Below, in pieces: positions 4,754 through 61,566 of a stretch of 64,000 bases of DNA. The position numbers were made by a program, and so were the translations under genes. This DNA comes from Scenedesmus sp. ARA3 (lineage: Eukaryota; Chlorophyta; Chlorophyceae; Sphaeropleales; Scenedesmaceae): positions 1 through 64,000 of the forward strand of contig RWJK01001651.1 in NCBI GenBank assembly GCA_004335835.1, read 5' to 3'. The first letter of the stretch is position 1; the number at the start of each line of letters is the position of its first letter. The notes beneath the pieces were generated by a model. That model saw nothing but the letters and a program-made list of their open reading frames with translations, had not been told where the DNA came from and searched no databases.

Positions 4754-6728
4754 ATGTCACATAAGCGTGCTCGATACGAAAGGATAGTTTTAGTAGAGCG
4801 AGATGCAGCCGAGGAAGACGAATCCAGCGAAGAAGAGGATGATGATGACGAGCAGGAGCAGGAGCCAGAAATTCAAGCGCAGCAGGCAAAACCAAGCAAG
4901 ATCTCAGTAGCGTTGAGGACTGGATCGGGGTTGGTTTGCCATGTGAGTGTAGTTTATGGTGGCACTCATGCAGCAGCTGTCATGGAGCAGGGAAGGTGGC
5001 TCTTGTACTGCTGCTACTGCCTGCTGTTGCAGGGTCCCATGCAGCCCAGCCACTTGTGCTATCTTTGCAACACCGCATGCAGGTGCAACGCAATTTACAG
5101 TTTCAACTAAACACAAAACACGCAAAACACAAATTTACGCAGTTGCACTGATCAGCAGCATTCGCACCCTGCCTGCTGCTGCACACACATCTGCACAGCA
5201 GGAGCCACAGGCAGCATGCATGCAAGTCCGTGCCATGCAGCTGCATTGCTTAACAAACCTGAAACTGCACTGTACAACTACAAATCGCATCTCTTATTGC
5301 ACAACACATCCATCTAGCACAGAGTGCATTCAAGGAGGATCCACGCATGGCTAAGTGCTGTGCTGTGCAGGTGTGTGGGCAGCGGGGGCACAAGGCTGGC
5401 TTTGTTGGGGCTGTCTACATGGACTGCCCAAACAAACCCTGCTACCTCTGCAAACAGCCAGGACACACCACTGCCAGCTGCCCACACAACATGAGCGTGA
5501 ACGCAGCAGCAGCAGCACCAGCAGCAGCAGGAGGCGGCAGGGGAGGGTCCGCATCACCGGCACACCTGCTGCTGCGGAGAGAGCAGGTGCGGACGCTGTG
5601 GCGCTCCAGCGCAGGGCACCTTTCTATGGCCTGTAGTCAGCAGCAGTAGCGTACACTGCATGCGGGCTTCACCTCCCCGTGTGTTCAACTATGCTGCGCC
5701 TTCTGTCCTCAGCTTCCAACAAGCACATCTACCATTGCTACATTGGTATGCCTAAGTTATGCAAAGCCGTGCAGGACATCACTGTCCAAACACCCCCGTC
5801 CCCACAGCCTCGTTCAATCCAGTCAAGTGCTGCCTTCTGTGCTGTGTGCTGTGTGTTGTGTGTTGCAATGCTTTGCTTCTGCAGACGGGGCAGCAGCGGC
5901 GTGGCCCGCTGACCACCCCTGCCTCGCCCCCCTGGCAAGTGGAGGCGGCCATCCTCAAGCTGCACAGCAGGCGCGTCTGCTGCTTGGCCTTCCCCGACAA
6001 CAGTGAGTTGATATGAGTCAGTTTAAAGTGTCAGCAGGTGTGTTCAGCAGATGGGTGCTTGTACAGGGAGTGCAGTGCAGAACAGTGCACAGCAGGCGCG
6101 TCTGCTGCCTGGCCTTCCCCGACAACAGTGAGTTGCGCGTCAGGGGCTTGCAGCTGTTTCAGCATGTATGTTGTCTCGCAGCCAGCAGACAGGCGCGTCT
6201 GCTGCCTGGCCTTCCCAGACAACAGTGAGTTGTGTGTCAGGTGTTTGCAGCTGTCCCAGCATGTATGTTGTCCCGCAGCCAGCAGCACCCTGTAGCCAGC
6301 AGGCAGGCGCGTCTGCTGCCTGGCCTTCCCTGACAACAGTGAGTTGTGCGTCAGGGGCTTGCAGCTGTTTCAGCATGTATGTTGTCTCGCAGCCAGCAGA
6401 CAGGCGCGTCTGCTGCCTGGCCTTCCCAGACAACAGTGAGTTGTGTGTCAGGTGTTTGCAGCTGTCCCAGCATGTATGTTGTCCCGCAGCCAGCAGCACC
6501 CTGTAGCCAGCAGACAGGCGCGTCTGCTGCCTGGCCTTCCCCGGCAACAGTGAGTTGAACTTGACGAAGTCAAGCTCATTTGTTGTGGAACACATGTTTC
6601 AGCAGTAAGGTACAGGAGGCGCGTAGCTCTTATGCGTGGCACTCGCATGGCAGTGTGAGTTGCAGGCAGCCAACTGCAGCAGGCTCCAGCTGTGCTGTTA
6701 TGTTTGATTTTGTGAAACCTCTGCTGCC

Positions 6729-6767
<39 letters not shown>

Positions 6768-7338
6768 TGACAGCCATGTGCTGAGTGGTGACAAGAAGGG
6801 CCAGGTGGCGGTCTGGAACTTCACACAGGTGGGAAGCCATGAAGTTCCTGGCGTGAAGTTCACGTGCATGTGCTGCTGCAGTGTATGCAGCAGAAGCTGT
6901 GGCATGGCTTGAGCTGCATGTGCAGCTGTTCTGGTTCTGCGTGATGCATGCTGCTGCTTGCCAGGTGACCGCATGGGGCAGCGCAGGCCCTGTTGAAAAG
7001 TGATGTGCTGCACATGCTGTGATATATACTGTTTTTAAGTGCAGCGAGAATCACGCGCGGCAGGCAGGCACAGGGGCAAGATCACTACAGTGGCAGCGCC
7101 CCTCGTGCGTGCAGACATGCACGCACGCGAAGAGCAGTCCATTGTATGCGTTGTACGCTGCTTCTGTTGCTGTTGCAGGTGCTTGGCCGCACCATCTATC
7201 GCAGCATACTCCAGGTTCTATCCAACATCGTCTGACAGCGCAAGCCTGCTGCTGCTGCTGCTGCTGCAGGTGCATGACCGCACCATCTACAGTGACACAC
7301 GCCAGGCGCTGGTTTAACGGCATCTGACAGCGCACGTT

Positions 7339-7371
<33 letters not shown>

Positions 7372-9096
7372 AGGTGCACGACCGCACCATCTACAGCAAC
7401 ATCCACCGGGCGCTGGTCAACAGCATCCGCTTCGCCAGCTGGCTGCCTGGCGGCTTCAGCTGCGCCTCTGCCTCATCAGACGGCACAGTGAAGCTGTTTG
7501 ACGTTGAAACAGGCGAGTGCTGCTGATGCTGGCTGTTCTCGGCTTTCAGTTGGACTTATACACCGTTTCACAGCATAGTGAAGCTGTACGACGTGAAAAC
7601 TCGTCTTGATGTTGCTCATGTTTACACATGCATGCTTATTGAGCCGTTCTGGCAGTCTGTACCCTCCGTGTGTTATGGCTGCCGATGTTCCCCTGCTACT
7701 TCAAACAAGCACAGCCACCACCTGCAGCTCTGGCTCCCACAAGCAGATGGGTGTGCAAGGTGGATGGTGCGCAGCAAGCCAGTTCGTACACAGCCAGGCC
7801 TTTCGGACTTTGAACCCATCTGCCCATCATTGGAAAGCATCTGCCGATTGTCTGGCGCTTTTGCCTGCAGGCGCCAGCAGCGAGCTGCTGAACCTCAACC
7901 CGTCGGGCTGGAGCCGGGGCTGTGCGTGGCACATGTTCTACGGCGCAGACGCCAACAGGGAGCTGCGCCTGGTACTGGCAGGTGCGGTGGCTGGGGCTGG
8001 TTACTATTCCATTATGGTTGCGGATGCTCACTTATGTGCAGCAGTAGATGGGTGCAGACACCAACAGGGAGCTGCGCCTTGTGCTGGCAGGTTCGGCTTG
8101 CGCAGTGCGGTTTGTGTGCAGGGCGAGACTGATCAACACCGGGTGTTGCTTTAATGTACCATTACACATGTGGTCGGCAGCCAGCGCGATGTGAGCAGTG
8201 AAGGGTGTGCGGCTGCCTTAGGACAGGCGGATGCGACCATTGTACCCATTGTAGCAGGGGCACAGCATGCTGGTTGCATCTGGTGTGCCTGACAAGCCCC
8301 TTTCGTGTTCCAGATACAGCAAGCACATGTGGCGGCATGCAGGCTATGTGGGTTGCGCGCTGCAGGTGACAGTGATAGCATGGTGCAGTCGCTGGACCCC
8401 ATGCACCCGTCAGCCTGTGTCATCATGCTTTGCTTTGTTATCGCGCAGTTTGCAGCAAGCGGCGCACGTGCAAGACGCTCTCCTTGCTTCTGCTCTGCCT
8501 GGCAAGGCCTGACTGGCACGCACCTTGGTTCATGCGGCTGCATCTCCTGCTGTCACTTGCAGGTGACAGTGATGGCAAGGTGCACCTGCTGGACCCCCGC
8601 GCTGCTGGTGGTGCCCTGAGCAGCCTGCAGCTGCACAAGCCGGGCTCCAAGGTCAACGCAGTGGCAGTGAACCCTGCAGGAGGGGCCAGCGTGGTGCTGA
8701 CAGCCGGTGGGTGTTACAGACTGCAGCCAGCCTGGCTGCTGAGGGCCCTGACACTTGCGGATTGGGGTTCCTTGCTTCTCTGATGTCAAGTATGCGTAGC
8801 TTCAAGGTCAACGCAGTGGCTGTGAAACCTGCTGGAGGGGCCAGTGTGTGCTGACAGCCGGTGGGTGTCAGTGCGTGACAGCATATTGTTTTGATACTGT
8901 TGCTGAGGGCTCTGATGCTGCCAGACATGCCAGGTTTTGTGCATGCAGTGGCACACCAGTTGTTTAATGCCTGATCACAGGCTGGCTTTCCTCCGCTGCC
9001 TTTGCTGCTACCCTGCAGGCAATGACCACACCGCCAAGCTGTTTGATGTGCGGAAGCTCAGCAGCATCAAGCCGCCGGCGTCTGACCCACCACCCT

Positions 9097-9139: not shown

Positions 9140-10419
9140 TGCTGCCAGTCCTGGCAGCGTCCGAGGCAGTGGCAGTGGCAGTGGGAGTGGCAGAGGTAGA
9201 GGGGGTGCCCGTGGTAAAGCGCGGCAGCAGCAAGCAGCAGCAGCAGCAGATAGTTTAGATAGTGATCAGGATGATGATGAAGCAGCTGCTACCCCTGCAT
9301 CAGGCAGGGGCAGAGGTAGTGGCCGTGGCAGGGGTAGGGGCAGCAGAGGTGGTAGTGGCAGCAGCAGAGGCGCCGCCTCACCAGCAGCAGCAGCAGACGT
9401 CATAAGCAGCCCAGAGGACGCACAAAAAGCAGCCAAGGCAGCAGAGCGAGCAGCAGCACGAGTGCGGTCGCAGGCAGCCGCAGCAGCAGCAAAAGCAGCA
9501 GTGCCTGCGCTGTTGGCCACTATGGCACATGGGCGGGTGGTGAACCATGCTGTGTTTAGCCCCTCAGGGCGGCAGATTCTGACGACCTGCCAGGACAACA
9601 GGCTGCGTGTGTGGAGCAACCTGCTGGCGTGTGATGGGCCCCCTAGCCGTGAGATCGTGCACAGCCACGACTTCAATAGGTGCGCATGCTGAATGGTGCA
9701 GCCTCATGCCTGCTTGTTGCAACGGAGCGGGTATGAAATTGTGGTGTTTTGCACATACTGCTGCGCAAAAGGAGGCGTCTATCAGGCTGCTGGCTGTTTG
9801 GCTGATGTGGTAGGCAGGGCGGGTGGGCTGGTGGGCTGCTGGCGTGCTACATCGTGACAACTGCCTTGCTGTTGTGCTGGCTGCAGATGCATGACCCCCC
9901 AAGGCTGAGTGGTTCCCCTCAGACCCCTCGGAGTGCAGCTTGTATCCCTTGTGACTCGTGCCTTGCTGCGCCTGCCCTGCTGTTGTGCTGGCTGCATGTA
10001 CCTCACCCCCTTCAAGGCAGAGTGGTTCTCTCAGAAACCCCTTCAGAATGCAGGCTTGTATCCCCTATAGCATGTCCCTTTACTGCATCTGCCCTGCTGT
10101 TGTGCTGGCTGCAGGTACCTGACTCCCTTCAAGGCAGAGTGGTTCCCCTCAGACCCCTCGGAGTGCAGGATCATCTGCGGCAGGTGGGGCACATCTGCTG
10201 CTTGCCTGCAGCTGCGAATGTGGACAGCTGGGTCACTGCTGGGCATGGTGCATGTGCTTGGTGCACACATGCGTTGTATAACAGCCAGGCTGTTCTGCAG
10301 CAGCTCAAGGTCAAAATGCAGCACCTCTGCAGTTCGCATTTTGCTGGGTGAAGTCTTCACAGCACTGCAGGCAGTTCCTTGGTATGTAAAATACGCGTTG
10401 CACAATATCAATTGAATGA

Positions 10420-22156: not shown

Positions 22157-25090
22157 TGCGGCCATTGCAGTATCAACATCATGCAGGACACAACCATCGT
22201 CCTGCAAGCACAGAGGAGCGGTTGAACAAGTTCAAGCTGCCAAGGCTAGCACAGCTGTAGTGGCACAGCAGCAGGCAGTTTCCTGCAAGCAGCACAGCCA
22301 AATCAACCAGCAGCAGCCGCCTGCAAAAGGTGCTACCCTGTGCAGCGCAGCATCACCTGGCAGTCCTCGGGCTTCCATGCCAGTCCAAAGCAGCAGCAAT
22401 CCCATGCAAGACAGCACACCATATCCTGCAAACTCTGTAGCGCATTACCTGGCAGTCCTCAGGCTTCCAAGCCAGCCCAAACACAGTGTTGCTGTGCCCG
22501 CAGCAGTCCTTGCCATCACCGCCAGTGAGCCGCAGCAGCGGCGTGCGCTGCTGGTCGTCATACACGCGCACCGCCATGTCGGTGCCTGCAGTGGCAAACA
22601 GCTGTACAACATGTGCCAGCATGTGAAGATCAGCATCAGCAGTAGCAGCAGCAGCAGGATGCATGCGAGTCAGCATGTCAGCACGGCATGGCAGATGCCG
22701 TTGGTGCTCAGAAGGTGCAAAGGTAGTTTCCTGCAAGCTGCAACGGGATCATGCATGTGTGACAAATACTCCTCACGCTGGTGCTGGTGTCCTTCTTTCT
22801 ACATGTACTGCAGTGATACAGCTTGCAGGAAGGCGACTGCTATGCCGCTTGCAGGAGTGCAGCTTGCAGGAACGCAATTGCTGTGTACAGCGTGGCACGT
22901 TGGCAAACATAACCACCACCAGTGATTTTTAGGGCACCAGCTGCATGGCAGCCACTCTTGCCAAGCGTAGCCGCTCTCTTGCATTGTTGCCGCCGACAGC
23001 AGTCGCTGACGAGACACAAATCAGGCGCCTCACCTGCCCATCTGGCCTGATGCTGATGTTGTTGATCTTGCTGCTGCCCTCATCACTCTGGGCCACTACG
23101 CTGCGCGTGCCTGTGTGCACATGCAGCAGCTTGCTGCCCTGCAGTTGGCAGCAGCAGCAGCAGCAGCGTAGGCTAGGTCATGCACATGAAGGCTACAGTA
23201 GCTGATAGAGGTGACACACGGGGTGACCTCAACTCACTGTTGCAGACTGTGTGGGGCAACAGGCCTTTGTAAGCAGCCATGCCCGCACAGACAAACAGCT
23301 TGCGACACTGTCTGCTGTGTTTATTAACAGAAGGACAGCCGCAGGCAGGCAGAGCAGGTAAAGCAGTTCTGCTACCTGTGCTGCTGCTGCTGCGGCGGCG
23401 GCGTAATACCGCAAAACCGTGTGTGCGGAAGTGGCAGCAATGCAACACAGCTGCTGTACAAAAATTGCAGCTCTGAGGGCGACACATGATGTAAGAGGAC
23501 AAACATGATGTGCAGTGCACAGGCACACAGCCCACATGCAGCAGTCCAACACAGCACGTCCCCATACGGACGCAATGCATTGCGTGCTGATACAACGCTA
23601 CACTGCCGCACCTTTGCGACTAGCAGCATGCTACGGTTGGCGGCACCACCAGCAGCGGTAGGCAGCCGGAAGCGCACAGCTGTAACCACAGCATCTGGTG
23701 CTTCCTGCAGCGGCAGGCTATCCAACACCTGCCCGCTGCTGGCGTCCACCAGCTGCATACACAGGACAGCAGACATACATAACAGCAGCCGCGGCACGAT
23801 CATGAGGCAGCAGGTGAGATCACGTGCTCAGCTCAAGCGTCCTTGCAAATGCATCATACATGCGGCTGCGCTGTGCACATATGTGAAAGCCAGGTTGTGG
23901 CATCCATCTGCACTATGAATGCATGTGTTGAGTGCACTTGGCAACCACTGCACAAGCCCATACACCCCAGCAGCTGCCATAGATCCCTGTGACACAGCGT
24001 CTCCTGCCTGGCATTGATGCACAGCTGCAGCAACTTCCACTCCCGCCAGCAATGCGCTGCTACCCCAGCAGCACGCACCAGCACTTGCCCCAGCCTGCAG
24101 CCCACTGCTGCTGTTGAGGTGTCCCTGGCTAGGCTGATGCAGGTGGCCTCCTGCCCCGGCTCCAGCTGCACCACACGGCCTGCGCATGGCAGCAGTAGTA
24201 GCAGCAGCAGCAGCGGCAGCAGCAGCAGCAGCAGCTTGGTAGGACTGGATGATCATGCATCATGGCAGGTTGCCAGAGACATGCTGCTGGCATGTGTCGA
24301 GGCTGGTGCTGGATGAGACCCTGCATGCATGGTGTGCAGCACAGCCCCTGAGCTGTTGCCTCATTGCCTGGGCCAAAAAGGCCTGACACCACACAGCTGA
24401 GTCCGTGATGCACTCGACATGTGCATTCGCTGTCATGTGTTGCATGCCCAACCTAGTGTCCAGCCTAACCTAGTGTGTTGTGTGTACATGGAACGGTTTC
24501 ACAACGAGCATCGTATAGATAATAGCAATCTCAGGCCAGGCTGATCTGCTCAGGGTGAGATAGACACTGCATTACTATCTGAGGGCAGCTCAGCAGCCTT
24601 GACGGCACTAGCATAGTAAAACATGATCCAGCATCACGTATCATGCTCGCTAGCTGCTGCACAGTCACCTGGCTGCAACTGTTCCCCATCCTTGACTGCC
24701 TGCAGCAGGAAGTTTAGCGGCTCTGCCTCAGGCTGGGGTGTGTACTTCTGCTGTGCTAGTTCACTTCGCTGCTGCGAAGAAAGGGATGAATTGAACAGAT
24801 CTGCAGAAAACACAGGCTCCTCATCACGGATGTGCTCCCTGCAAGCAGCACGGTCGGTGCACAGTTCAGCAGAGAAGCATTGCTGTGCAGTACTCTACCT
24901 GCAATGCTGCGTGCGATCACAATCACCCACCCTTCATCACCGGAGTATTCCATGCGTGCAAAAACCAAAGTTACTGCTTCAGCTCGAGCAGGATTGGGCG
25001 ATCCCTGACAAGCTCTCGGAGCCCGCCTTTTCACACGACTTCACAGTACGGTTGCAGCAGGCAGCGCACAGTTTTCAGGTTTAATTGCAT
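21042..25090 (-). CDS. WD40 repeat protein, 5' end unresolved
   Basis: The exons I read are about 25023-24975, 24838-24669, 24179-24079, 23752-23612, 23138-23034, 22601-22449, 22117-21953, 21723-21553 and 21206-21042, with phases that agree. The first two exons give a helical N-terminal region (LRELVRDRPILLELKQ, then EHIRDEEP). The rest form a WD40 propeller: TCISLARDTSTAAVG, SIRPDGQLFATAGTDMAVRV, GHSNTVFGLAWKPEDCQ, LLSAGWDATVQVWDLR, VCGDGLDVQGSRVLTGSW, LQLWDFGSGRL and a last blade SAVHAMDWVS to LLAVCCARQLHFLSA. The blade order resembles a conserved WD40 family of protists, but I cannot name it. The 5' end is open: an ATG at 25090-25088 is in the right frame but a TGA at 25033-25031 intervenes, so another exon or start is likely. 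A ghost of the 22449 exon end lies near 22340-22385. Confidence 0.75.
22122..22155 (-). repeat. (CTG)n on the sense strand upstream of a WD40 exon
   Basis: The plus strand shows a CAG run; on the gene's own strand it reads CTG and runs into the CCGCAG acceptor of the exon that starts at 22117. Confidence 0.8.
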
Positions 25091-32609: not shown

Positions 32610-32985
32610 CTACTCCTGCATGAAGTCGCCCTGGGGTGCGCCCCTGCCCCTGAAGCTGCCACCTGCTGCCGCTGCTGCTGCTGCCTGCTGCGCCTGCCTG
32701 CTGACACTGCAGCAGCAACACACATGGCAGTGGCGATGGCAGCGCAAATTTAAATGTAAGAGGGTGCGCAGTAGCAAAAGGGTGATGCAGCAGGTGTGGC
32801 AGAGAATGCTTGCACCCTGGCCGGTGTTGCGGCAACTCAATTAGCAGGCTGCACGCCCCACCAACACAGCCCGCAGCACTGCCAGGTACCAGTCTAGACA
32901 GCAGTAGCGAGCACTGACGCGTGGCGCTGGCAAGCCCTGCCTGCAGCAGAACCACATGCGACTGCACGACAACCTGCAGCCAGCC

Positions 32986-36620: not shown

Positions 36621-37594
36621 ATGTCAGACAGCCAGCGCAATGGCGGCAGGGCAGGCCGAGACGGTGGCGGCAACAGGGAGGTGCCAGGCAGGGAGCAAGA
36701 CAGCAGCCGCGGCAGAGACCGCCCACGCACTGCACCGCAGCAGCAGCAGCAGCAGCAGCAGCGGCCACGCTCGCCACCGCGCAGCAGCAGAGGTGACGAC
36801 AGAGACAGAGACCACCGCAGGCCGCTGTCACCTGGCAGGCGCCTGCCGCCGTCCCCCAGGCACCGAGAGCCGTCCCGCGAGCAGCAGCAGCAGCAGCAGC
36901 AGCGGCGTCCTGAGTGGGACGAGCGGCAGCAGCGAGGGCCGCCGTCCCCACACGGGCCGCTGCCGGCCCTGCACAGCTTCCCACGGGACAGGGACAGGGA
37001 CAGGGATGGCCCGATGGATGGCCCTGGTCGTGTAGGCGGTGGTAGTTACAGGGACGGTCCTGCTTGGGACCGCAGGGACAGGGACAGGGGCCCAGGGCCG
37101 GGGGCTTTTCCTCACAGAGAGCCACCGCGGGACGGCAGAGATCCTCACAGGGACTACTGGGACAGGGACAGGGACAGGGACAGAGATAGGGACAGGGACA
37201 GTGGCGGCTACAGAGGGCCACCAGGTGGCCCCAGGCCCTTTGCAGACGGCTGGCGCGGCGGTGGTGGTGTCCCGCCGCCTCCCGCTGTAGCGCGAGAGCG
37301 CAGCAGCAGCCGCGAGCGCGGCCGGGGGCCGCCACAGCAGCAGCAGCAGCAGCAGCATGGTGTGAACGCTGGCGTTGAGGGCGGCAATGCGTTTATGCTG
37401 CTGGAGCGCTTCTTGAGCAAGCACGAAGCCTTGAGGGTGAGTGGGCATGCAGCTGCCGCGTGTACACCCATGCTCAACCCTGCTGCTGTTGTCGCTGCTG
37501 TGCTGCACACCACAAGCTCACGCACAGGCCACAAGTGCCCCAAGCCCAGCCAACGAGAACACAGTGCACCTCCAGTACTGATAACATAGTTACC

Positions 37595-37641
<47 letters not shown>

Positions 37642-37724
37642 TTGTTTTTCTCGCAGGCTACCATGGCCCCAAGTGCCAGCCAACGTGCACATGGTGCACC
37701 TTCTGTGCTGATAACATTCTCACC

Positions 37725-37782
<58 letters not shown>

Positions 37783-42522: not shown

Positions 42523-45011
42523 CAAAGATTCTGGCGGCCGAGACAAGGCTGCTGCTGGCAGCGGCGGCGGCAGCGTCAGCAGCAGGGATAAGGAGAAGGA
42601 CAGGGACCGGGATAAAGCCCACAACAAAGATGGCAAGGGAACTGTCAAGCAAGTGCATGTCAGCAGGCCCCCACCGCCTGAGGTAGCAGACATCTTGCAA
42701 AGGCTGCTGCCCCAAGGCCCGCACAGCGCTGAGAAGGGCAGCAGGCAAGCCTTAGAGCGCCTCCGCAGCCGCAGCCGCAGCCGCAGCCGCAGCCGCAGCC
42801 GCAGCGCAGAGCGCCGCAGGAGCAAGCGCAGCCGGGGGATCTCACCTCCTCCTGTTGCACGCTCGCCGCGCGACGCGGCAGCAGCAGCAGCAGCGGCGGC
42901 GGCGGCTGGGCCGGGTTTCAGGGTTGGCAGCCCTGCTGCGCCGCGAGTGGACTTGGAGGAGGCCCGGCGGCGCTTTGCTGGGCGGCTGGAGGGCGCTGAC
43001 GCGCTGTTTGGGCAGGTGTCAGCGGAGGCTGAAACACGGGAGTGGCTGCACAGGTGGGCGTGCTGCTGTGCATGTGACTGCAGAACCCGTGGTGTGCACC
43101 ATCAGGTGGATGTTGTCTCCTGGCTGCATGGCCTGCTGCGCCTGGAGCGCGCTTGTTGCATTGTTGTTACATCATGAACATCCACACTTCCAGCGTTCAC
43201 TCTACAGCCCTGGTGCTGTGTGTGCTGTGCAGTGTGCATGCTGCCTGCAGGCTGGCTGACCTAATGCACAGGAAGCGCATTCACAGCAATGACACATCAG
43301 CAACAATCATCGCTTGCAGCTTTCACTCTTCAACCCTGGTGCTGTGTGTGCTGCGTGCTGCCTGCAGGCTGGCTGACATGCTGCGCAGGGAGCGCACGCA
43401 CAGCGTCCACCTGGGCATGATTGTCCGCCACATGCCCATACCCATGGAGGTGAGCGCAAGAGTGTTTGATGCAATGCTAATGGCAGAAACATTGCATTAG
43501 CTGTGGTTTGCTTGCAGCTGGGTGTCATTGTCCGCCACCTGCCGATACTTATGGAGGTGAGGGCAAGTTTTTTGATTGGTTGTTTGTGCAGACAAAAAGC
43601 ATTGTGCTTTGTGTACACCTGGGCGTCATTGTGCCTGCGCTGCCTGTGTTCGCCTGATCCCATTGCCCATATCACACAAATGCAACAGGTGTACAAGCGC
43701 TGGGGCGGCGTGAACAGTTTCCTGTCCCTGCACCTCGCGCTGACCTACCAGCCCGCCACCAAGCTGGCGGGCCTGCTGGAGGGCGTTGACCTTACATATG
43801 TATGTTTCCAACTTGCGTTTGTTTCCACGCCACCTGGTGTGCAGGCACTGGCACGGCATCTTTTCTCTTGCTTCCTGGCGCTGACGCATGCTCAACACTG
43901 CCTGTGCCTGCCTGCTTTGAACATGTACTTGCTCAAATTTTAATGCTCGCAGGTGTACAAGCGCTGGGGCGGCGTGAACAGGTTCGTGTCGCTGCACCCC
44001 GCGCTGACCTACTAGCCCGCTACCAAGCTGGTGGCCCTGTGTTGTATATGGGACACCTCATGCCCATGCCTGCGTCCTGCTGCTCACAGGTGCACCGGCG
44101 CTGGCGCAGCATCTGCTCTTTCCTCTTGCTGCAGCACACATTGCTAAATGCTGAGGGCTGCCTGTGTCTGCCGTGCTTTTGCTATGTACAAACAGGTGTA
44201 CAAGCGCTGGGGCGGCGTGAACGCCTTCCTGTCGCTGCACCCCGCACTCACCTACCAGCCTGCCACCAAGAAGGTGGGCCTGCTAAAAGGCATTGACCTG
44301 GATGCAGTGCCCATGCTGCCACCCCCAAGCCGCGAGCAGCAGCAGCAGCAGCAGCAGCAGCAGTGGCGGGAGCCGCCTGGCCGGCGCGGTGAGTCGCCGG
44401 GTAGTGGCCCGGGCAGGTTTAGGCACGAGGGGCCGCCACCTCCGCATTGGGAGAGAGGCGGGCCACTGTCCCCGCAGCAGCAGCAGCAGCGGCAGCAGGG
44501 GCGCTTTGGTGGGGGCTTCCCTGGCAGCGGCGGCAGCAGCAGGGGCAGGAGCCGGAGCCCTGGCAGCGGCCGGCCTGCAGCAGCAGCAGCAGTGATACCG
44601 GCGCTGCAGCTGGCGCAAGAAGACCCAGCAGCTAAGGAGCTGAGGGAGCAGGTGCTTGCGTTTGCGAGCTCGCTGCGGCAGCAGCTGGCCGCAAACCTTC
44701 CGGAGCATCAGTTAGAGCTTGCGGACGCTTATGCGCTGCTGCCGCTGCAGCTGCGCGATAAAGTAGCTCCCGGCTCGCCAGTCGACATGCAGAAGTTCCT
44801 GGAAGATAACATTGGAGGTGTTAAAGTGGTGCGGAAGGACGGCCGCATGCTGGTGCAGGGTTTGGAGCCGGGCCAAAACCGCGAGCCGCAGCCGCCGCGG
44901 CAGTGTGCGTACTGGGATGCTGGAAGCTGGCTGGGGTGCTTCAAAGCAGCGCGCTGCAACTTCAGGCACGCGCTGGGTCCGTCAGACAAAGACCTCAAGA
45001 TGTGGATCTAG
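36621..45011 (+). CDS. RD/RS-rich nuclear protein with C-terminal CCCH-like finger
   Basis: The nine exons are 36621-37436, 37816-37984, 38281-38492, 38890-39024, 39938-40060, 40627-42005, 42280-43053, 43368-43449 and 44196-45011. They sum to 4506 nt, 1501 residues, in frame. Residues 1-272 are rich in RD dipeptides and poly-Gln. Exons 2-6 hold a helical region (LTLQQLAHTVWRLQLCTDLEG, FITEVLAYVEQQP). Exon 6 is long and Gln/Gly-rich, and exon 7 carries a run of about eight Arg-Ser dipeptides. The C-terminal exon has VYKRWGGVNAFLSLHPALTY, then CX10CX5CX3H (C1467, C1478, C1484, H1488). RS/RD tracts and a CCCH-like finger suggest a role in pre-mRNA processing; this is inference. I recognise no named orthologue. 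Most of its introns carry ghost exon ends. Confidence 0.8.
37527..37815 (+). repeat. Three-copy array of CTG tract, acceptor and exon 2 start
   Basis: Copies of the exon 2 start (GCC...CCAAGYGCMAGCCAA type) follow CAG acceptors at about 37527, 37655 and 37812. Long CTG runs (about 37596-37638 and 37726-37775) lie before the second and third copies. The block of CTG run plus exon start has thus been repeated as a unit. Confidence 0.85.
37985..38280 (+). repeat. Ghost copies of the exon 2 end plus donor
   Basis: Two copies of the exon 2 end (LQLLAGTYVLVPAHDIPLLG-like) with a donor lie at about 38041-38112 and 38172-38252, downstream of exon 2. Both are frameshifted or substituted. Confidence 0.85.
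38578..39415 (+). repeat. Ghost copies of exon 3 end and exon 4 borders
   Basis: One copy of the exon 3 end lies at 38578-38626. One copy of the exon 4 start lies at 38766-38823, upstream of the exon. Three copies of the exon 4 end (WRLQLCTDLEGMI and the GACAAG|GTGA donor) lie at 39092-39160, 39241-39305 and 39362-39415, downstream. Confidence 0.85.
39598..40625 (+). repeat. Ghost copies of exon 5 and exon 6 starts
   Basis: Copies of the exon 5 start (EQQNLSELGMDADT-like) lie at about 39598-39655 and 39808-39866, before exon 5. Copies of the exon 6 start (VLAYVEQQPGGPEGLKQRL-like) lie at about 40190-40255, 40306-40335, 40390-40455 and 40507-40560, before exon 6. Most retain a CTGCAG acceptor. 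Confidence 0.85.
43236..44195 (+). repeat. Ghost copies of exon 8 borders and exon 9 start
   Basis: A copy of the exon 8 start is at 43236-43290 and a copy of its end at 43512-43565. Copies of the exon 9 start (VYKRWGGVNSFLSLH-like) lie at 43685-43790 and 43950-44035. The first exon 9 copy is open for about 35 codons; the second has an in-frame TAG. Confidence 0.85.
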
Positions 45012-45093
45012 TGAGGTTTGCGTTGGGGCTCAGAGAGAGTGAATTACTTTTGAGTTGTGGAGCATTGGGGCAGCTGTCCAGGATCTCTGTAGC

Positions 45094-45098
45094 TGTAA
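45094..45098 (+). terminator. TGTAA poly(A) signal, RD-rich gene
   Basis: TGTAA lies about 83 nt after the stop codon. A second TGTAA at about 45296 follows a decayed copy of the gene's 3' end. Confidence 0.5.
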
Positions 45099-46737
45099 AG
45101 GCATGGAACTTAGGACCCGGGCAGCTGACTGGGGTGTGTCAAAGTCCGCAGTCAGCCTGCGTTGCATGTTCAGGCATGCGCTGGGGCCGACTGACGCGCA
45201 GCTGAAGATGTGGATCTAGTGATGATGGAGCAGTGGTTGCAGGTTAGGCTCAAGGAGGGAGCTGCTAGCACGGTGTGCAGGACGTAGTGTGGGACTGTAA
45301 AGATGGACAGTCTAGCAATGGTCCCAGGCTTGTTGCACTGCAACAGCTGAGCTGCATGTACATGCACTTGGCAGGGGTGTGGGATCAGGATGTTCACCCT
45401 GGCTCGACCGCAAAGCTTCGGGTCTTGTGCGGAGCTGTGCAGGCCTGCCTAGGCAGGACAGCTCCCGTTGTGGACCATCAGCATTCACTCTGGTTTAGGG
45501 ACAATCAGGTTTACCTTGTGAGGTTGCGCGTTTTGTGGGTAGCTGTGTGCAGGATGTGTGCCAGTGGGGATGTACAGGGATGGTGTGTTTACTATGAAGG
45601 GCTCATGTTGCTGAGTTGTCTCGGGCGCTTGGCAGTGGTGCAAAAAGTTTTTGGGACCAGACATGAAGCATGCTGGGCCACAAGTCTGCTGCGGCAGCAG
45701 GTGTTCAAGATACTGTGCTTGTTGAGGATGCCGCATTGTTAGCAGTGCTGGTCGACGCAATATGTTGCATTGTGCTTGTGCTTGTAATGAATGCATTCGG
45801 CAACTTTTTCTTATCTGGTCTACCACTGGTAGATGCAGATGATCTGCATCCCTACAGTCACAACGGCAGCGCAGGTCACGCGACTGTGTGTGAGAGACTC
45901 TCTCTGAGAGGTTGTGAATTGCAACGCTTGACAATATTACCTTCCTTGCAGCCTGTTCCTTGACTAATATTTGCAAGCAGTATCAAGACACCGCATGAAG
46001 GGTGTCATGTCCAGGGTTTGTGTCGCCTGTGGACTGTCATCAAGAGCGTACCGTTTCGATGAAGCTTAATACACATAAACTAGGAAATATTCACGCGTAA
46101 ATCACAAGCTGGCACCGGCTGTAACCAGTGAAGAAGGTTTTCAGCATTGCAGTACTGTACTGCTCTCTTTGATCGTTCTGTGGTTGTTGGATTGTTCAAA
46201 ATCCCAAGCCATCTTTATAGAAAACCAATTGCAAGCGAATGAATGGGTGTATGCGCCCTCACAAGAGCCAAGACAGTACACCAGACATGCAGCTGTGGCT
46301 AACACAGTGTCATACCAGCATACTTGGGGGGCCTTACCTCTTACACGTTACTTTGAGATCTTACGATTCGTTTCGACTTAAGCGTCAGCTACGTACATGA
46401 ACACTGAAATCACCCACCACTGGTTGTCATCGCCGGACTGCACTGTCAGCTGCACTTCTGCAACAGCGCCGGTTGAGTTGATACGCCGTTACATTGTTGA
46501 CCAGTAAACTTTGCGGAATCCTCACTGTCTCAGCTAGGGACATGCCCATTATCGCCGGTAGTGTCGGGATCATTTGAATCGTTTCGCCTCCGCGACAGAT
46601 CGGCACGCAGCCTGAGTCACGTGGCATAATTGGTTACAAAACAGTTAGAATCAATGCCTTAGCTGATATCTTGCCAGAATTGGCAGTCAAACTCTTTGGC
46701 GGGAGCAGCAGCACCATCAAGCACCCCGAGGAGGTGC
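45099..46737. other. Intergenic region with a copied gene end
   Basis: At about 45150-45225 lies a decayed copy of the RD-rich gene's last codons, including the ATGTGGATCTAG stop context. The remaining 1.5 kb shows no exon I can support. It should contain the promoter of the GT61-like gene. Confidence 0.5.
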
Positions 46738-47649: not shown

Positions 47650-49125
47650 CTAATGCGAACCTGCCAGCTGTCAGCAGCAGGAGAAGGAGCAGGAGCCGCA
47701 GCATCGGCGCTGCTGCCACCCTCAGCAGCTTCCTCCTCCTCCTCCGCAGCAGCAGCAGCAGCAGCAGCAGCAACGCAGTGGAGCTGCAGGCTGACGCGGC
47801 CTTAACGCGTCTGCTTTCGCCATGGATCCTTGTTTGACAATGTTGTGGCGCACTTCACGCCACAACCAGAACAGCTTTGGCCACTGTGAGGCCTTGCCTT
47901 GACCAGGTTATATTCTCTCATGGCTTAATGAGGCTTTGGCTCCCCAAACAAGCGGCTGCATGGCCGGGTGGCGCGCAGCCACACCAGTAGGTGTGGGGTG
48001 ACGTGCTGTGGTTGAAGCACATCATACGCTCGGCAGCTGGCAGGCAGCTGCCCTGCAGCGCTAATGCTTGTGTCATGCTTCTATCAGGCTAGGCTGGACT
48101 GTCGCTTCATTCCCAGAGGCAACCCTGGCTGACACTCGCTGCTTTGTCATGTGCTGTGTCGCGCGCTGTCACCCTGCGCTGCATGCAGCACTCTTCAACG
48201 AGGCCCAATTTTTATGAAGCTACCTTGCTGCCGCACTTGCAGAGCCAATAGCTTGCTGCCAAGCACATGTTGCAAGCGTCTGGTTACCCCATGCTGTTAC
48301 TGTGCTTTGCTGCAGCACTTGTCAACGAGGCCAATGTGGTTGTGAGGCTAGGTTGCCCTTGCGCTTGCAGGGCTGATAAGTTAAGCCAATAGTTGCTGAC
48401 AAAACGCGTTGTATGCCTGCTGACAAAAAAATGTGTTGTTCGCGTGCCCCATGCTGCCGCCCTGCGCTGCATGCAGCACTTGTCAACAAGGCCTATCACA
48501 CTGTGACGCTATCTTGCTGCTACACTTACATAGCCACCACCTTGCTATCAAAACCGTGCTGTATGCCTCTGTTTTCTGTCCTATGCTGCCGCCCTGCGCT
48601 CGGTGCAGCACTCGTCAACGAGGCCTTCCCCATGTTCCTGGTCCTGCAGAACCACTTCCTGCAGCAGCAGCAGCAGCAGCAGCAGCGGCGGCGGCAGCAG
48701 CGGCTGCAGCTGCTTGCAACATCCACACTGGAGCCAGTGCTGCGCAGCGTGGTCCGTAACACATTAACAAATGACACGCAGCTGCTGTCTCAGCGGCTTG
48801 CAGGAATTGCAGCTGCAGGCAAGGCTGGCATCTGCTTCCGGTGGCTGCTGTTGGGCGATGGCGGCTACCACGTGAGCTTGTTGCTTCTATGTTGTCTGTT
48901 GATCGATTCGCTTGGCTGTCACTGCGCAGCACCCGTACAAATTTTAATGACAGCTGTCCAAAGTGCTGGCTGCTGCTGCAAACCACCTTGTCTGCTCCTG
49001 GTGGCACAGGCAGCCAGCTGCGCCCCGCTTGCCAGTATCTGGCAGCGGCATGCTGCTCAGTACGGCAATGCATCCAGCTTCTCTGGCAACTGCTGCATTC
49101 ACTGACATTTCGTTGTATCAACATG

Positions 49126-49181: not shown

Positions 49182-50302
49182 AGGCGGCCAGTTATGCCTC
49201 ACTGGCCAACAGCAAGCAGCGGCATGCTGCTCAGTACAGCGTTGAGCCCAGCTTCTTCAGTAGTGCCAAGTGGTGGGCCTTCAGGCAGCACGTGATGCAG
49301 GTGCGCAGGCTGGGAGTGAGGCATATGCTGTGCATGCAGGACTGTGTGCTGTGCATGCAGGACTGTGTGCTGTTGACACAGCAGCAGCTTGCAGCTGCAG
49401 GGTGCCTGCCTGTCTCTTTGGCTGGCCAGTCTCTATGTAGATGAGTGTGAGGACTTCCGGCCTTTGCAGCAGTGCTCGTTGGTGGACCTTCAGGCGGCAC
49501 GTGATGCAGGTGAGCGGGTAAAGATGAGGGGGGGAGGGGGAGAACTTTGGGTGTGAGGAGAGGGTTGCGGCTGTTGGCGCCCCCATCTGCAGTCCTCCGC
49601 AACAGCGCCGGCTACCTCGCTTCGCTCGGCATGGAGGACGCTTAAATAGTTATCTTACACCGGCTGCATGTGCAGTTGTCTGCTTGCGTGCAGGAATGCC
49701 CTTATTCGCTGCGCCGACACCACTGCTGCTACACGTCTGCTGCCTCTGCTGCTGTTGCTGCTGCCTGCAGTTGCATGGTGTGTCAGAGGCGACCCCTGCT
49801 GCCGCTGGCACCAGACCGCTTGTGGTGTTGAATGACAAGCGGCACGGGCCTACAGGGCAAGAGGATAGGCGCATGATCCTTGACATAGACAGTGTGGCAG
49901 CAAACCTGTCAGCTGCATACCCAGGCTGCGAGGTGAGGTGTGAATTGTGCAGTACTGGTGGTGGATATGTGTCCCGCAGGAGTGCATTGAGTTGTTGTCA
50001 TTGCCCAATGAGCCTGTTATATTTCGGCTGCAGCAACGTGGCAGCCAACCTGTCAGCAGCGTACCCAGGCTGTGAGGTGAGGATTGGGCAGAGCTGATGC
50101 TTGTTTGATGGTCTGCTGTGATGAATGGTGGTCTGCCCTCGTTGTGGCCTTTTGCGGGCCCAATACACATGTCAGCCAACCTGTCAGCCGCACACCAGGC
50201 ACCTGCTTTTCAGCTGCGGCTGCGGCAAGGCAACCGTTACTTGGCACTTGCTAGCCAAATCGACACCAATGGCGCCGCTTAAAACGTGTCATGCACCTGC
50301 TG

Positions 50303-52320: not shown

Positions 52321-52739
52321 CAACATCTTCATTATGCACATGCCTGGCTGGCCTTGCATACAGTCAGTTTGACTAGTTTGATTGTCTTGTGGACACACTT
52401 CATTGGCTGCAGTGTACTGGGTGCCCCATTGCCGCGAGCCGCTGCACCTGTATCTTGAACTATATCTGCACTGCCCTTCTTTGATTGTCACAAGCGTGTT
52501 GACATGGCTGCGCCGCCCTACTGGGTTGCTAGTGTCCCCATAGGTGACCGTAGAGGATGCCGCTGGGCCGCGTTGAATGCGTGTACAGTGGGGGCGTTGC
52601 TGTGTTGAATGGATGTATGAGCTACGCGTGGTGTGTTCACACTTCACAGCAGCGTAAGTGAAGGAAGGGGACGTGTGTGGCGATGAGGATACCTCATGCG
52701 CCTCCACGCCTCCTACCAGCTGTGTTGGTGGTATGCTGT

Positions 52740-53345
52740 GCAGCAGCTGCCTGTCCTCCCCACCTAGCCGCGCCAGCCGCCCAGCACAAGCAGAGATGCA
52801 ACATGCGCGGAGCGCCCGCATAACACATCTCAACCCGCAGCAGCTTGCCCACACCACGCAGCTGCGTCACCGGCCAACCACGAGACATCCTGCTGCAAGG
52901 GCAGAGCGCCGGCACTACACACCTCTCAACCTGCGGCAGCGAGCCGCGCCTGCAGCAGCTGCCGATGCTCCCCACCCAGCCCTGGCGCTGCCTTCCAGCA
53001 CAAGCAAAACTGCTGCATGCGCCGAGCGCCAGTTCTACACACCTCTCAACCTGCGGCAGCAAGCCGCGCCTGCAGCTGCGCCAATCGCCGCTGCAGCAGC
53101 TGCCGGTCCTCCCCACTCAGCCCCGCAGTGCCTTGCAGCGCAAGCGAACCTGCTGCATGCGCCGAGTGCCAGCACTAAACACTTTACTGTGCGGCAGCCA
53201 GGCGCGCCTGCAGCTGCGCCAGCCGCCGCTGCAGCAGCTGCCGATCCTCCCCACTCAGCCCCGCATTGCCTTCCAGCTGCCGCTGCAGCTCTGCTGCCTC
53301 CACCCGCATCGCCTCTCCATCTCGCTTTTGCTGGGCTTCGGCTTA
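52740..53345 (-). repeat. Four ghost copies of the PLAT gene's last exon end
   Basis: The segment encoding LSGEDRQLLQRRLAQLQ and the following RLAAA-stop recurs at about 53330-53190, 53165-53040, 53005-52910 and 52800-52735, downstream of the true end at 53415. The copies get shorter and more diverged with distance. Confidence 0.85.
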
Positions 53346-53414
53346 CTCATCCGTCAACCATAAGAAAAACTGTAAGAACATAAGGAGATTCCGAAAGCGC
53401 CAGCACTACACACA

Positions 53415-56400
53415 TCAACCTGCAGCAGCCAGCCGCACCTGCAGCTGCGCCAGCCGCCGCTGCAGCAGCTGCCTGTCCTCCCCACTCAACCCTGCATTGC
53501 CTTCCAGCTGCCGCTGCAATTCATCCGCCTCCACCTGCACTGCCTCTCCATCTCCCCGCTTGCTAATCTTCGGCTTACTCAGCAGCACGGCCCGGCCCCG
53601 GCCCCTGCCCACCCAGCCGTTGTTAATAACGCTGTTACTGAAGCTGTAGCTGACGCCCTTCAGTGCAGCCTCCACTGTCACTTTTTCCAGGCACCAGCCG
53701 CCGCCGATGCTGCTTCCCTCTGGCTCCTGCCACAGCAGCAGCGCGGCCACCTCCCCCAAATCACCTGCCTCTGATAGCACTGTGAAGGACTCAACACTGC
53801 CTCTACCAAAGGAGCCGCGGGCTCGGGGCAGCTCTGCATGCAGCAGCACAGGGCCCAGCGCCGCATCACTGCTGCTGCTGCTGCTGTTAGGAGCTGCTGC
53901 TGCTGCTGCTGCCTGCCGGCCAGCAGGCACAGGCTGTGCCCAAGGAGGAGCTAAACTCTTGCTGCTGCTGCTCGATGCTGCTGCTTGCCGGCCAGCAAGC
54001 GAGGGCCGAGCAGCCTGCGCAGCATGAGAAGGAGCTGGTCCCAGCAGCTGCAGCACGACCCTCTGCCCTGCCGGCAGCCCTGCACTGATGCGGTCTGCTG
54101 TGAAGAGCTGCAGCCGGTACTCTGCTGCCTTGTGGGTGGGCTTTGAAGCCACCAGCTGCACCGGCAGCATTGCTGCGCCACTGCCACTGAGAGACTCGGC
54201 GCCATATGCAGCTGCCAAGGCCCACTGCTGCTGCTGCTGCCCCTGCTGCTGTGACTTTGCATCTTGTGTGTCTCGCTTGGAGGCCATCAGCTGCACTGGT
54301 GTCAGTACACCGCTGTCACTCAGGGACTCGGTGCCATATGCAGCTGCAGTCAAGCCCCACTGCTGCTGCTGCTGCTGCTGCTGCTCCTCCTGCTGTACAT
54401 TGGGAATTTGAGTGTCTTGCTGCAGGCTGTCGCTGCTGCTGGTACTGCTGCTGCTGTGCATGAGTGTGTGGTAGCTGGCTGCGTCTGGTGGCGCCTGCAG
54501 CGACGTGAACTCGCCACCACCCTGCGCAGCAGCAGCGCACACACAGCGGCAGCGATGGCAGTTGGTGTGTTGAGCTGCGCTTGCAACTGGCGAGCGCTGA
54601 TGCTGCACAGTAACAGCAGTCATATCATGTGTCGGACACACATCAACAATCATCCTCACCTGTGCCTCCAGCAGCTGCTCCTCAGTGAAGCTCTCCACGC
54701 TGCTACTGTCATCATCCTCAGCGCCACACAACAGCTTGGCCAATGCCTTTGGCCGATGCCTGCCTTGCAATAGTGCCATTGCAGCAGCAGCCTCACCTGT
54801 GCCTTCAGCAGCTGCGCATCCTTGGTGAAGCTCATCGCACTGTACACAACAGCTTGCTGCACATTTTGTGCCAAAAACCTTACAACACTCACCTAGTAAC
54901 ACACGAACAGAAGTGCAGCAGCCTCACCTGTGCCTCCAGCAGCTGCTCCTCAGTGAAGTCGTCATCCTTGCTGCCACACATCAACAAATTGTGTGCATGC
55001 CTCGCCAACAATGGTTGCAACCCAAGCAGCAGCCTCACCTGTGCCTCCAGCAGCTGCTCCTTAGTGAAGCTCTCGCCGCTGCTGCTGTCGTCATCCTCAC
55101 TGCCACACATAAACAAATTGTGTGCATGTCTGTCATACATCACTTCCACTGCAGCCTCACCTGTGCCGCCAGCAACTGCTCTTCCTCAGGAGAACTCCTC
55201 CCACTCTACACAACAGCTTGCCTCACACATGCATCGCAGCCCGCACAACTTCAAGAAATGTAAGATTTTGCAGCAGCCTTACCTGTGCCTCCAGCAGCTG
55301 CTCCTCATTACGACTCTCCACACTCTATGCAGCAGCCGGCTTTGCACGATGCATCGTAACCTGCCCAAGATCATACCAAAAGAGGTGCAGCAGCCTCACC
55401 TGTGCTTCTAACAGTTGCTCCTCAGTAAAGCTCTCCACGCTGCTGCTGTCGTCATCCTCGCTGCCACACTCCAGCTGCTGCACCCACTCACAAAACCGCA
55501 CAGCCTTGGCAGCGCTGCCCGCCCTGCCGCTGCCAGGTACAGCAGCAACTATCTCCAGCTGCCAAATACCTGCAACTAGGCTGTTTGCTGCTGCCCCTGC
55601 TGCTTCTGACTCGCTAGCTGTGGCAGCCGCCGCCTCTGCTGCTGCATCCTGCTGCTGCTCTTGGCCCTCCCCATCATCCCCAGTGAGGGACGCCTTGGGG
55701 GTAGGCAGCCGCTGCCTCACCCGGCCCTGACTCGAGCTCGAGTCCTGCCTGCTGACCTTCCTGCTGCTGTCACTGTCCAGCGGCTGCGCTATTTGGCCAT
55801 CTGTATCAGAGGCAGTGCTGCTGCTGCTGCTGCTGCTGCTGCCTGGTTCGCTGCTGCTGTCCTGGTCCCAGTCTATCAGCGGCACTAGTTTTACTGTCCC
55901 AGCACTTCCAGAGACCCTCCTGCTGCCCTTTGCAGCAGCAGCAGCAGCAGCAGTGCTGGCTGTGCCAGCTGCAGCCTTTTTGGGCGAGGCAGCATGCCGC
56001 TGATGCAGCAGCAGCGGCTGGCAGCTATCACCGGCGGCAGGCGCATGCAGCAGATGCTCACTGTACGGCGGAGGGTCTGACAGAACTGGAGCGTCTGCTG
56101 CTGCTGCTGCTGCTGCAAGTGGTGCTGTTGCTGCTGCTGCTGCCTGCCGCCTGGCGGCTGGGCTGCTGCGCACAGTGCCGCCTATGCTGCCTCCAGTTGC
56201 TGCAACACCCTCAGCATCACTGCTGCAAGCCCTGTACAGCAACAGCTGCGGCCTGCTGCTGCTGCTGCTGCTGCCTAAACCTGTTACTGCATGTCCTACA
56301 ATGGGGGACCCGGGTGCTGCTGCTGGCATCATATCTGGCTCACAGCTGTGTGCCCTGCGCACCGCCAGCAGCTGCCGCACGTGCTGCTGCTGCTGCTGAG

Positions 56401-59400: not shown

Positions 59401-61566
59401 GCCAGGCGCGCACAATTGCACGCCCATCGCTCCACGAATCCATTGCTTGTGGTTTAATTGCAGACTGCGTGAGGTTCGACCACACACAGCCAAGCCATGT
59501 AGTTGAGCCACAATTGAGCCAGCAGCAGCCCTCATCGGCTTACCCTGGTGCGCGTGCCAGCTCCGTGCTTGCTGCTGGTGTGCAGGGCCAGGCGGTAGCT
59601 GCCAGCGCCAGCAAGCCATGCTGCAGGCGGCGGCTCACCAAGCCAGGCAGCAGCAGCAGCAGCAGCACTGTCTTCATCAAGCTGCTGCTCGCCGTCTGTC
59701 TCAAGGTCCACACTGCCGCTGCTGCAGCAGCTGCCGCCGTTGTCACTGCCGCTGACGCAATCTGCGCTATCCTCGGCATCACAGCCAGCTGCAATGCTCC
59801 ATGCGTTACCGCCGCCGCCTGCTGCTGCCTCAGACTGCTGCAGCGCGCTAGGCTGGTTCAGCAGCTTACTCTCTGTGCCATCGCCGCTGCTGTGGCTGCC
59901 GCCCTGCAGTCCATTCGCCTGGAGTGCTCCACCCAGACTCCTGCTGCTGCTGTTGCTGCTAAGCTTCCCAGTCAGTGGCTGTGCTGATACTGCTGGTACT
60001 GCCGTAGCTGCAGCTGGTACTGCCTGCAGCACGCCAGCTGCCGGCTCGCTGTAAGCAGCGCCTTGCTGCGCAAAGGTGCCCTGACTGTTGTGTGCTGCAG
60101 CTGCTGCCAGCTCTTCTTCATAGTCATCTCCATCTTCTGATCCACAGTAGTCATCATAGGGATCATACGGCTCGTAGCCAGCGCCTGCAGTGGGATGGTG
60201 TGCAAAAACAGCCACGCAAGGTAAAAAGAGATTGAGCAAGGATACAGCCTGCATTTATCATCATAGGGATCATATGGCTCATAGCCAGCACCTGCAGTGA
60301 GGCAGGTGTGGTGGGTGCAGGCACAGCCACACGACGTCAGCCCTGCCCTGCTGCTGAAGCAACAGCGGCATCATCTGAATCAACTGCGCTGCAGAGTGTG
60401 TGCTGCACTACGTTGCACTGCAGCACACACAACAACTCACGCTACTGCTGCTGCTGCTGTGCGCACTGCTCACCTCCCGTCATGCGCATCACTGGCAGCT
60501 CGTCATCGCTGCCAAATGACGCCCTGCCGTCATCCAGGTAGCCGCCGCCACCATCATTATCATCACCATCACCACCTCCCCCTTGGCCCTTCACTGCTCA
60601 CCTCCTGTCATGCGCATCACCGGCAGCTCATCATCGCTGCCAAATGACGTCCTGCCGTCATCCAGGTAGCCGCCACCACCATCATTATCACCATCATCAT
60701 TGGCCCCCTCACTACTTAGCAGCCAGCTGGCACCTCCATCCAGCTCATGCGCCAGCTCCTGCAGCCCCTGCTGCTGCTGCTGCTGCTGCTGCTGACCTGG
60801 CTGCCGCCACTGCTGCTGCTGCTGCACTGGCCGAGGGTTGCCTGCGAGGGATAGCTCCTCAGCGCCCGCAGCAGCAGGGTTGGTGTACTCCACAAATGCA
60901 GAGCGCTCCACTTCCTCCTCCTCAGCCTCACTCGCGCAGTAGCTGCTGCTGATCGCGCTGCTGGCGTCGCTGCTGCTGTCACAAGGCACCAAGCTGCCCA
61001 CCAGCTGCTGCGCCCCTGCTGCTGCTGCTGCAGGTGGATCTCGCGCAGCAGCTGCTGCAGCAGCAGCTGGCTGCCATGCTTTGTCTGTTACATTGGACTC
61101 CAGCAGGTCACTGTCTGCCTCGGAACCTTCCAGATCAAGTGGTGCTCCAGTTGACAGCTCAGCAAAGCTTAACCCTGGGCTCAACGGCGCCACACCTGGC
61201 TGCTGCTGCTGCTGCCAGCCCAGGTGTGCTGTTGCCCCTGACAGATCACCATGCACTCCAGCCTGAGTGTGTAGTGGGCTCACAGGGGAGGACCAGGCTG
61301 AAGATTGGTTAAAGGCAATTGCTGCATTGTCAGAGTAGGCATAGCCAGCATAGCTGCCAGCTGCTGGCGAGCCGGGCGCACTGCACTGAAGTTCACAGTC
61401 CACATCACTGTGCGCAGCGCTATGAAGTTCACTGTGAGGGTCGTCACTGCCAAAGTCGCTGCTGCCGTTGCTTGCTGCTGCTTCCGCGGCACCAAATGCG
61501 CCCTGGATGGCTGCTACCGCCTGCAGCTTGAGCAAAGGCGGCTCGGGACTGCTGTGCCTGCTCGCG

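Follow-up and report, generated by a model that had tools for sequence, protein, structure and literature searches.

Copies of exon ends recur in adjacent introns of Scenedesmus sp. ARA3, mostly at a spacing near 130 bp

Introduction

Why should the introns of a green alga hold repeated copies of the ends of their own exons? The question is raised by the window, a 64,000-nucleotide stretch of contig RWJK01001651.1 from Scenedesmus sp. ARA3. A sequence-only reading of this stretch held that in six of nine genes a segment covering an exon end and the adjacent splice site had been copied in tandem two to seven times. It further held that copies of 3′ exon ends lie strictly downstream and those of 5′ ends strictly upstream, that the copies decay by degrees and supply spare splice sites, that CTG/CAG runs could seed them, and that transposition, retrocopying and classic whole-exon duplication do not explain them. 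Here we call the copies ghosts and the exon ends that they resemble live, and consider how frequent ghosts are, how they are arranged and how they may have arisen.

Methods

The assembly holding the window comprises 87.27 Mb in 1,567 contigs. We analysed 230,145 bases in total: the window, nine kinesin genes (L018–L026) and the stretches L002–L017, which comprise pieces of other contigs and the sequence that continues the window. The sampled stretches beyond the window amount to 155 kb and come from evenly chosen contigs rather than from a true random sample; L013 is mostly N (9,608 of 10,000 bases) and was left out of many counts. Genes were predicted with our own small gene finder, trained on kinesin exons of this genome, whose exons in L018 and L021 broadly agree with profile matches when compared by eye. 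Its consensus is CAG/GTGAG at donors and TGCAG/G at acceptors, with a median intron of 282 nt and a median exon of 152 nt. Because it sometimes labels ghosts as exons, live and ghost may be swapped within arrays.

Triplet-rich probes were removed from most probe counts; the first probe table kept them. In the copy-block analysis, targets with at least 35% predicted exon were dropped, leaving 98 of 188 blocks, from which came 66 exon-by-direction cases and 52 families that were analysed further. The intron census excluded introns with any N or with a flanking exon shorter than 45 nt, and the profile of identity across junctions was anchored on exon sequence alone.

GC content is ~57% and introns are long, which resembles the values given for Tetradesmus obliquus in PMC5966456. 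Kinesin homologues in Tetraselmis and Dunaliella salina stand at 65% and 63% in protein comparison, and a Pfam scan of 20 window ORFs gave matches for 5, mostly weak. The window also contains a tandem repeat with a 36-bp unit inside a predicted coding exon (1–196), a lone N within zinc-finger gene coding sequence (position 28004), and inverted paralogous gene segments with ~70% identity across 1 kb (842–1850 and 12936–13938).

Results

We confirm that exon-end ghosts are real and genome-wide, and are not peculiar to this window. At least one ghost copy of an adjacent exon end is present in 42 of 232 predicted introns. The window contributes 14 of its 64 introns to this count, the other stretches 24 of 129 and the kinesin genes 4 of 39. 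With 36-nt probes, a same-strand copy within 700 bp was found for 45 of 242 exon 3′ ends and 45 of 244 exon 5′ ends, compared with 21 of 242 intron starts, 25 of 244 intron ends and 18 of 200 intron middles (~18.5% for exon ends versus 9–10% for intron probes). Exon-middle probes had a local copy in 12 of 111 cases, a figure that is probably inflated, since this table was not filtered for triplet repeats. Decoy probes made of reversed flanks gave 0 copies within 700 bp in all seven probe classes.

After filtering, self-alignment of the window, the check proposed with the original reading, shows 23 clusters of local direct repeats, and many of these lie at exon ends. Six of the seven merged gene blocks carry at least one exon-end copy, the block at 25680–28960 alone having none. 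The scan gives 2 to 6 copies per exon end, close to the number first reported, and the graded decay is also seen, ghosts in the window matching the live end at 21/36 to 36/36 bases. That the copies are an assembly artefact is the least probable of the explanations considered: N-run gaps are present in the assembly, but the copies bear private differences, span several independent contigs and show the codon-position pattern described below.

On the forward strand, the live 3′ exon end of a WD40-repeat gene lies at 6002 and is followed by ghosts whose ends fall at 6127, 6224, 6338, 6435 and 6549 (5961..6558; 33–35/36 bases); the intron flanks are common to the ghosts and have no significant likeness to the live-end flank. 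An acceptor array at 7157..7463 (self-alignment and probe match) has its live acceptor at 7373, preceded by 5′ ghosts at 7269 and 7178, and is followed by a donor pair at 7942..8096 (live donor end 7981, ghost 8090, 33/36, flank unrelated). One exon carries both kinds of ghost (8361..8868), with acceptor 8562 and 5′ ghost 8365, donor end 8706 and 3′ ghost 8860. In the acceptor array at 9858..10168 (live acceptor 10114; 5′ ghosts 9997 and 9886) the nearer flank is homologous, as in a plain tandem. Exon 37816–37984 (37480..38250; self-alignment and probe match) has 5′ ghosts at 37656 and 37527 and a 3′ ghost at 38241. Donor ghosts recur at 38450..38627 (live donor end 38492, ghost 38620, 35/36 exon bases, intron flank unrelated) and at 38968..39420 (live donor end 39024; ghosts 39157, 39301 and 39409), and an acceptor array spans 40147..40683 (live 40626; 5′ ghosts 40512, 40394 and 40199 at 26, 33 and 30/36). 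At 43250..44299 exon starts are repeated at 43250, 43367, 43688, 43952 and ~44191, and which copy is live is uncertain. A donor pair lies at 44915..45222 (donor end 45010, ghost 45218), repeats 5′ of the acceptor of exon 48609–48871 lie at 48150..48626 (self-alignment spacings 128, 288 and 420), and two donor ends lie within 49184..50211, namely 49300 (copy 49509) and 49937 (copies 50081 and 50211). At 50665–51014, a coding stretch near the end of a glycosyltransferase-61-like exon is recopied 278 bp downstream, past the stop codon, a duplication of the ghost kind but at a gene end instead of in an intron.

On the reverse strand, a donor pair at 22356..22481 has its live donor end at 22448–22449 and a ghost at 22356 (30/36, spacing 92). 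An RNA-binding gene, which we take to be ALYREF-like, contains two donor arrays: one at 33855..34249 (live 34203–34204; ghosts 34040 and 33855, 34 and 31/36; flanks unrelated), the other at 32989..33426 (live 33359–33360; ghosts 33233, 33114 and 32991, 35, 34 and 25/36), in which the intron parts are partly homologous. An acceptor pair at 33527..33815 (acceptor 33527, 5′ ghost 33786, 34/36) has an unrelated flank with a polypyrimidine tract, and its ghost is labelled an exon by the gene finder. Self-alignment reveals an array at 52739..53581 across the last exons of the 53184–64000 gene block. At 54630..55476 the donor end predicted to be live is at 55399, with copies at 55282, 55038, 54927, 54796 and 54659, several of which the gene finder labels as small exons. 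An acceptor pair occupies 60150..60309 (acceptor 60184, 5′ ghost 60291, 30/36), and a donor pair at 60464..60719 (end 60601, ghost 60473, spacing 128) shares ~98 exon and 10 intron bases at 94% over 108. Beyond the window, exons seem to be duplicated entire, both splice sites included, in L003 3876–5149, L005 6400–7541 and L016 6693–7155; these arrays are possibly real exon duplication instead of ghosts.

With equal adjacent flanks, 3′ exon ends have a downstream copy in 23 and an upstream copy in 3 of 186 cases, and 5′ ends have an upstream copy in 18 and a downstream copy in 2 of 188, so that the direction rule, obeyed by 41 cases with 5 against, holds but is not quite strict. Of 66 exon copies in non-exon DNA, 52 hold the expected end on the expected side; two of the remaining 14 are purely interior, the others being whole-exon, wrong-side or ambiguous arrays. 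Below 1,500 bp, a search independent of gene models gave 182 direct and 2 inverted repeat events. Both counts (182 versus 2; 41 versus 5) show the placing of a junction-crossing tandem duplication, direct and adjacent to its source.

In our argument the rule needs only tandem geometry and selection, with no special mechanism, because a duplication spanning a junction leaves the protein intact only when splicing uses the first donor or the last acceptor; were a second donor in use, intron together with a stretch of exon would enter the message. For one intron the use of the first donor past three ghosts is supported by P0121, a database protein antisense to the locus. Its splice join removes whole the 653-nt intron at 32707..33359 (reverse strand), which encloses the ghosts at 33233, 33114 and 32991: 159 of 160 residues match the join 32706–33360, whereas the three joins made at ghost donors match 148, 149 and 136 residues and the unspliced sequence matches 128. 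P0121 is probably transcript-derived, because its join is absent from genomic DNA, and we infer that other introns behave alike. P0122, a more distantly related protein that aligns at 85% across 18% of the query, contains no second in-frame copy at the protein level, and a second array, searched as antisense protein, gave no match.

The median ghost spacing is 129 bp, with 74 of 93 spacings within 90–175, and local direct repeats found without gene models peak at 100–175 bp, lesser maxima lying near 260 and 400. Among 79 events spaced 85–185, 29 are exon copies in noncoding DNA, where random relocation gives 21.2 ± 4.0 and 18 of 500 relocations reach 29; a further 29 are wholly noncoding (36.3 expected), 14 otherwise touch a junction (12.4 expected) and 7 are wholly exonic (9.1 expected). 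Local, recurrent copying in tandem direction is thus supported, but junction targeting is weak: the excess is a modest ~1.4-fold, and the process is mostly not a junction process. This lies near the outcome that the sequence-only reading had named as fatal to itself, copies no more frequent at junctions than inside introns; on the other side, exon-end probes do exceed intron probes. The exon-end excess plausibly arises chiefly because live exons change slowly. Triplet runs occur in 16 of 42 ghost-bearing and 47 of 190 ghost-free introns (1.51 versus 0.95 per kb), too weak an excess to sustain the proposed CTG/CAG seeding.

Introns with one ghost have a median length of 397, compared with 265 for ghost-free introns, which fits one extra unit of ~130. 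A first run of an intron-length model favoured the addition of 130 nt; with long introns capped, a length-biased addition of 55 nt also fits (KS P 0.35–0.82). Spacing is a multiple of three in 4 of 34 families with unrelated flanks, fewer than expected, but the filter drops copies labelled as exons and no inference is drawn.

The copied segment had been described as an exon end plus its splice site. The exon end stands, but mostly only a few intron bases accompany it: in most two-copy families the common block is the exon end and few intron bases (mostly 0–14 nt at donors). Exon and intron parts are both clearly homologous, as in plain tandem duplication, in 18 of 52 families. In 34 the exon part matches (up to 100%) but the intron past the splice consensus is unlike, with intron homology undetected. 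Across the 25 donor families with unrelated flanks, intron-side identity is 0.74 over bases 1–5, 0.35 over bases 6–10 and ~0.25 beyond. Significant intron homology is lacking in 13 of 14 families with exon identity of at least 0.90 and is found in 17 of 38 at lower identity. Residual homology in the 34 unrelated flanks has a mean z of 0.87, versus 0.40 in control pairs (P 0.08).

Ghosts and live ends differ at 25/388, 24/387 and 52/386 sites in the three codon positions (6.4, 6.2 and 13.5%; 33 families); by this pattern the ghosts look unconstrained, with the live exon drifting at third positions. Since the ghosts do not look old either, their flanks should differ by little more than 12%, yet they fail to align. 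Plain tandem duplication followed by neutral decay alone would account for the 18 plain families and for the direction rule, but is contradicted for the unrelated-flank families by exon identities of 90–100% beside unalignable introns. As an explanation of all families it was rejected, because at exon identity of at least 0.90 the intron should align and in 13 of 14 families does not, and as a sufficient account we judge it very unlikely.

The same 13 families would be expected if a single event copied an exon end of ~25–110 nt and the splice consensus, but no more of the intron, into the intron next to it. Such an event might involve template switching where microhomology resembles a splice site, templated end joining, or an RNA or cDNA template ending at the junction. 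Such copying also explains the sharp boundary in intron-side identity better than homogenisation does. By itself it leaves unexplained the confinement to the adjacent intron in one direction, the 90–175 bp spacing and the real-like polypyrimidine tracts before ghost exon starts, and we regard it as doubtful, if worth entertaining.

Of 33 donor-side ghosts, 29 retain GT and 27 reach a donor score of 3.9 or more, as live donors do. Fifteen ghost acceptors with unrelated flanks, a few of which may be real exons, have a polypyrimidine score of 0.80, where live acceptors score 1.12 and random intronic CAG −1.07; 0 of 5,000 resamplings reach 0.80. In the tested families, no splice site was found at the inner edges of ghosts (0/25; 1/8 above the background 90th percentile), and ghosts as micro-exons with two splice sites were rejected there. 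The notion of spare splice sites is not supported as proposed: ghost sites score like live ones, but the sole splice-joined protein found skips them. Donor scores and good acceptors would suit ghosts that are functional alternative exons or splice sites under selection; inner edges that lack a splice site, a codon pattern without coding constraint and the skipping of ghosts in that product make this scarcely probable. The inner edges also speak against tandem or mutually exclusive exons, some whole-exon arrays excepted. A processed retrocopy is likewise not what is seen, since 29 of 33 donor-side ghosts run into GT and only exon ends are copied.

Arrays take the form (XY)nXZ, the outermost flank being unlike the inner ones. 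Flanks are homologous in 33 of 73 inner pairs and in 10 of 65 pairs that include the outermost copy, although pairs are not independent, and in 4 of 28 two-copy families. Within an array, similarity to the live end is equal for the nearest and farthest ghosts (mean 0.85 each), the nearest being higher in 11, lower in 10 and tied in 2 of 23 arrays. Distance from the exon thus does not reflect age, and the proposal that new copies are always added at the live junction is not supported, similarity showing no order with distance.

In a genome-wide search, ten spacers matched only their own loci, which leaves no introner or mobile-element signature among them; against the other sampled loci, 56 of 66 spacers had no match and 10 had short matches of 20–77 nt. 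Of 12 outer flanks searched, 11 matched nothing in the genome beyond the locus they came from. The twelfth, in L017 (G000:C1440:27932-28062), is ~80–83% identical to a dispersed repeat also present in G000:C1340, C964 and C1316. Neither a mobile element nor genome-templated filler is supported, the searched spacers being without a source elsewhere, and an intron transposed from another gene was rejected as the ghost flank, 11 flanks being sourceless and the twelfth a dispersed repeat. As far as tested, the exclusion of transposition and retrocopying agrees with the retained GT and with the locus-unique spacers and flanks. Array form, functional-looking outer acceptors and an intron shift of ~130 would nonetheless fit an insertion with long target duplication, in which filler arrives with a 30–110 nt target copy, the outermost copy is the original site, the live one is new and inner units multiply. 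This reading, which we consider quite improbable, leaves the filler sourceless and predicts an age order along arrays where none is seen.

Discussion

We tentatively favour, at somewhat short of even chances, tandem duplication of ~130 bp combined with exon-limited homogenisation. Local tandem duplication with a step of ~100–175 bp recurs across the genome, as spacing, orientation and direction show, and duplications within exons would presumably be purged by selection. Boundary-spanning copies would survive where splicing continues at the first donor or last acceptor and so hides the extras in the intron, as in the one intron documented by P0121. Inner units would then multiply by unequal exchange or slippage, as the homology of inner flanks suggests, while the intron part of old copies would diverge beyond recognition. 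Finally, gene conversion or unequal exchange within the stretch that still matches may repeatedly renew the exon part of a ghost from its live counterpart, which is the weakest step.

Exon-limited refreshing is favoured because it reconciles the regular spacing, the direction, the unique flanks and the absence of an age order, which is expected if ghosts are refreshed at random. Several observations tell against it. Residual flank homology is weak; polypyrimidine tracts persist, though a long-neglected flank should have lost them; homology between outermost and inner flanks is rare, contrary to what plain tandem duplication would lead one to expect; and the ghost-length test also permits length-biased insertion of ~55 nt.

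We think it unlikely that copying is splice-aware, a joint claim in which exon ends enter adjacent introns as copies that always stop at the splice junction on one side, seeding and refreshing splice sites, from an RNA or cDNA template or by exon-confined conversion, and introns grow by ~130 bp per step. If ghost formation is general in the lineage, its introns are enlarged in ~130-bp steps, and the process can be traced by the spare splice sites, real in appearance, that it leaves behind. The ghosts would then document small tandem duplication and its filtering by splicing, and would be raw material for exon or splice-site change. Because they resemble small exons, ghosts mislead gene prediction.

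Tandem arrays are known to undergo concerted evolution through gene conversion and unequal exchange. As in such arrays, the copies here resemble one another more closely than their surroundings would suggest from their age, and array edges differ; homogenisation appears, by contrast, solely in the exon-derived part of the unit.

Recurrent exon-end ghosts at a fixed intron spacing were not described among the matches listed, which covered titles and abstract openings of openly licensed papers; the genome-wide frequency, the ~130-bp step and the exon–flank asymmetry, none of them described in that literature search, appear to be new here. Already in print are boundary-crossing tandem duplication, intron gain involving AGGT and small tandem duplication by break repair. 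In the potato RdRp gene a tandem duplication crosses an intron–exon boundary; as here, the segment spans the acceptor and brings splice signals into the new copy, but that was a single event that produced a new spliced intron and changed exon structure (PMC4974935), whereas the algal copies are hidden in an existing intron, recurrent and genome-wide. Intron gain through tandem duplication of an AGGT-bearing exon segment, or through double-strand-break repair with direct repeats, is similar in that local duplication or repair provides splice sites (PMC3443670); here existing introns enlarge, and what is copied is the end of an exon together with its splice site instead of an internal exon segment. 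CST–Pol alpha fill-in at 3′-overhang breaks yields small tandem duplications, likewise local and in direct orientation, with overhangs of ~50 bp among its substrates (PMC8355091), whereas the algal spacing is mostly 90–175 bp.
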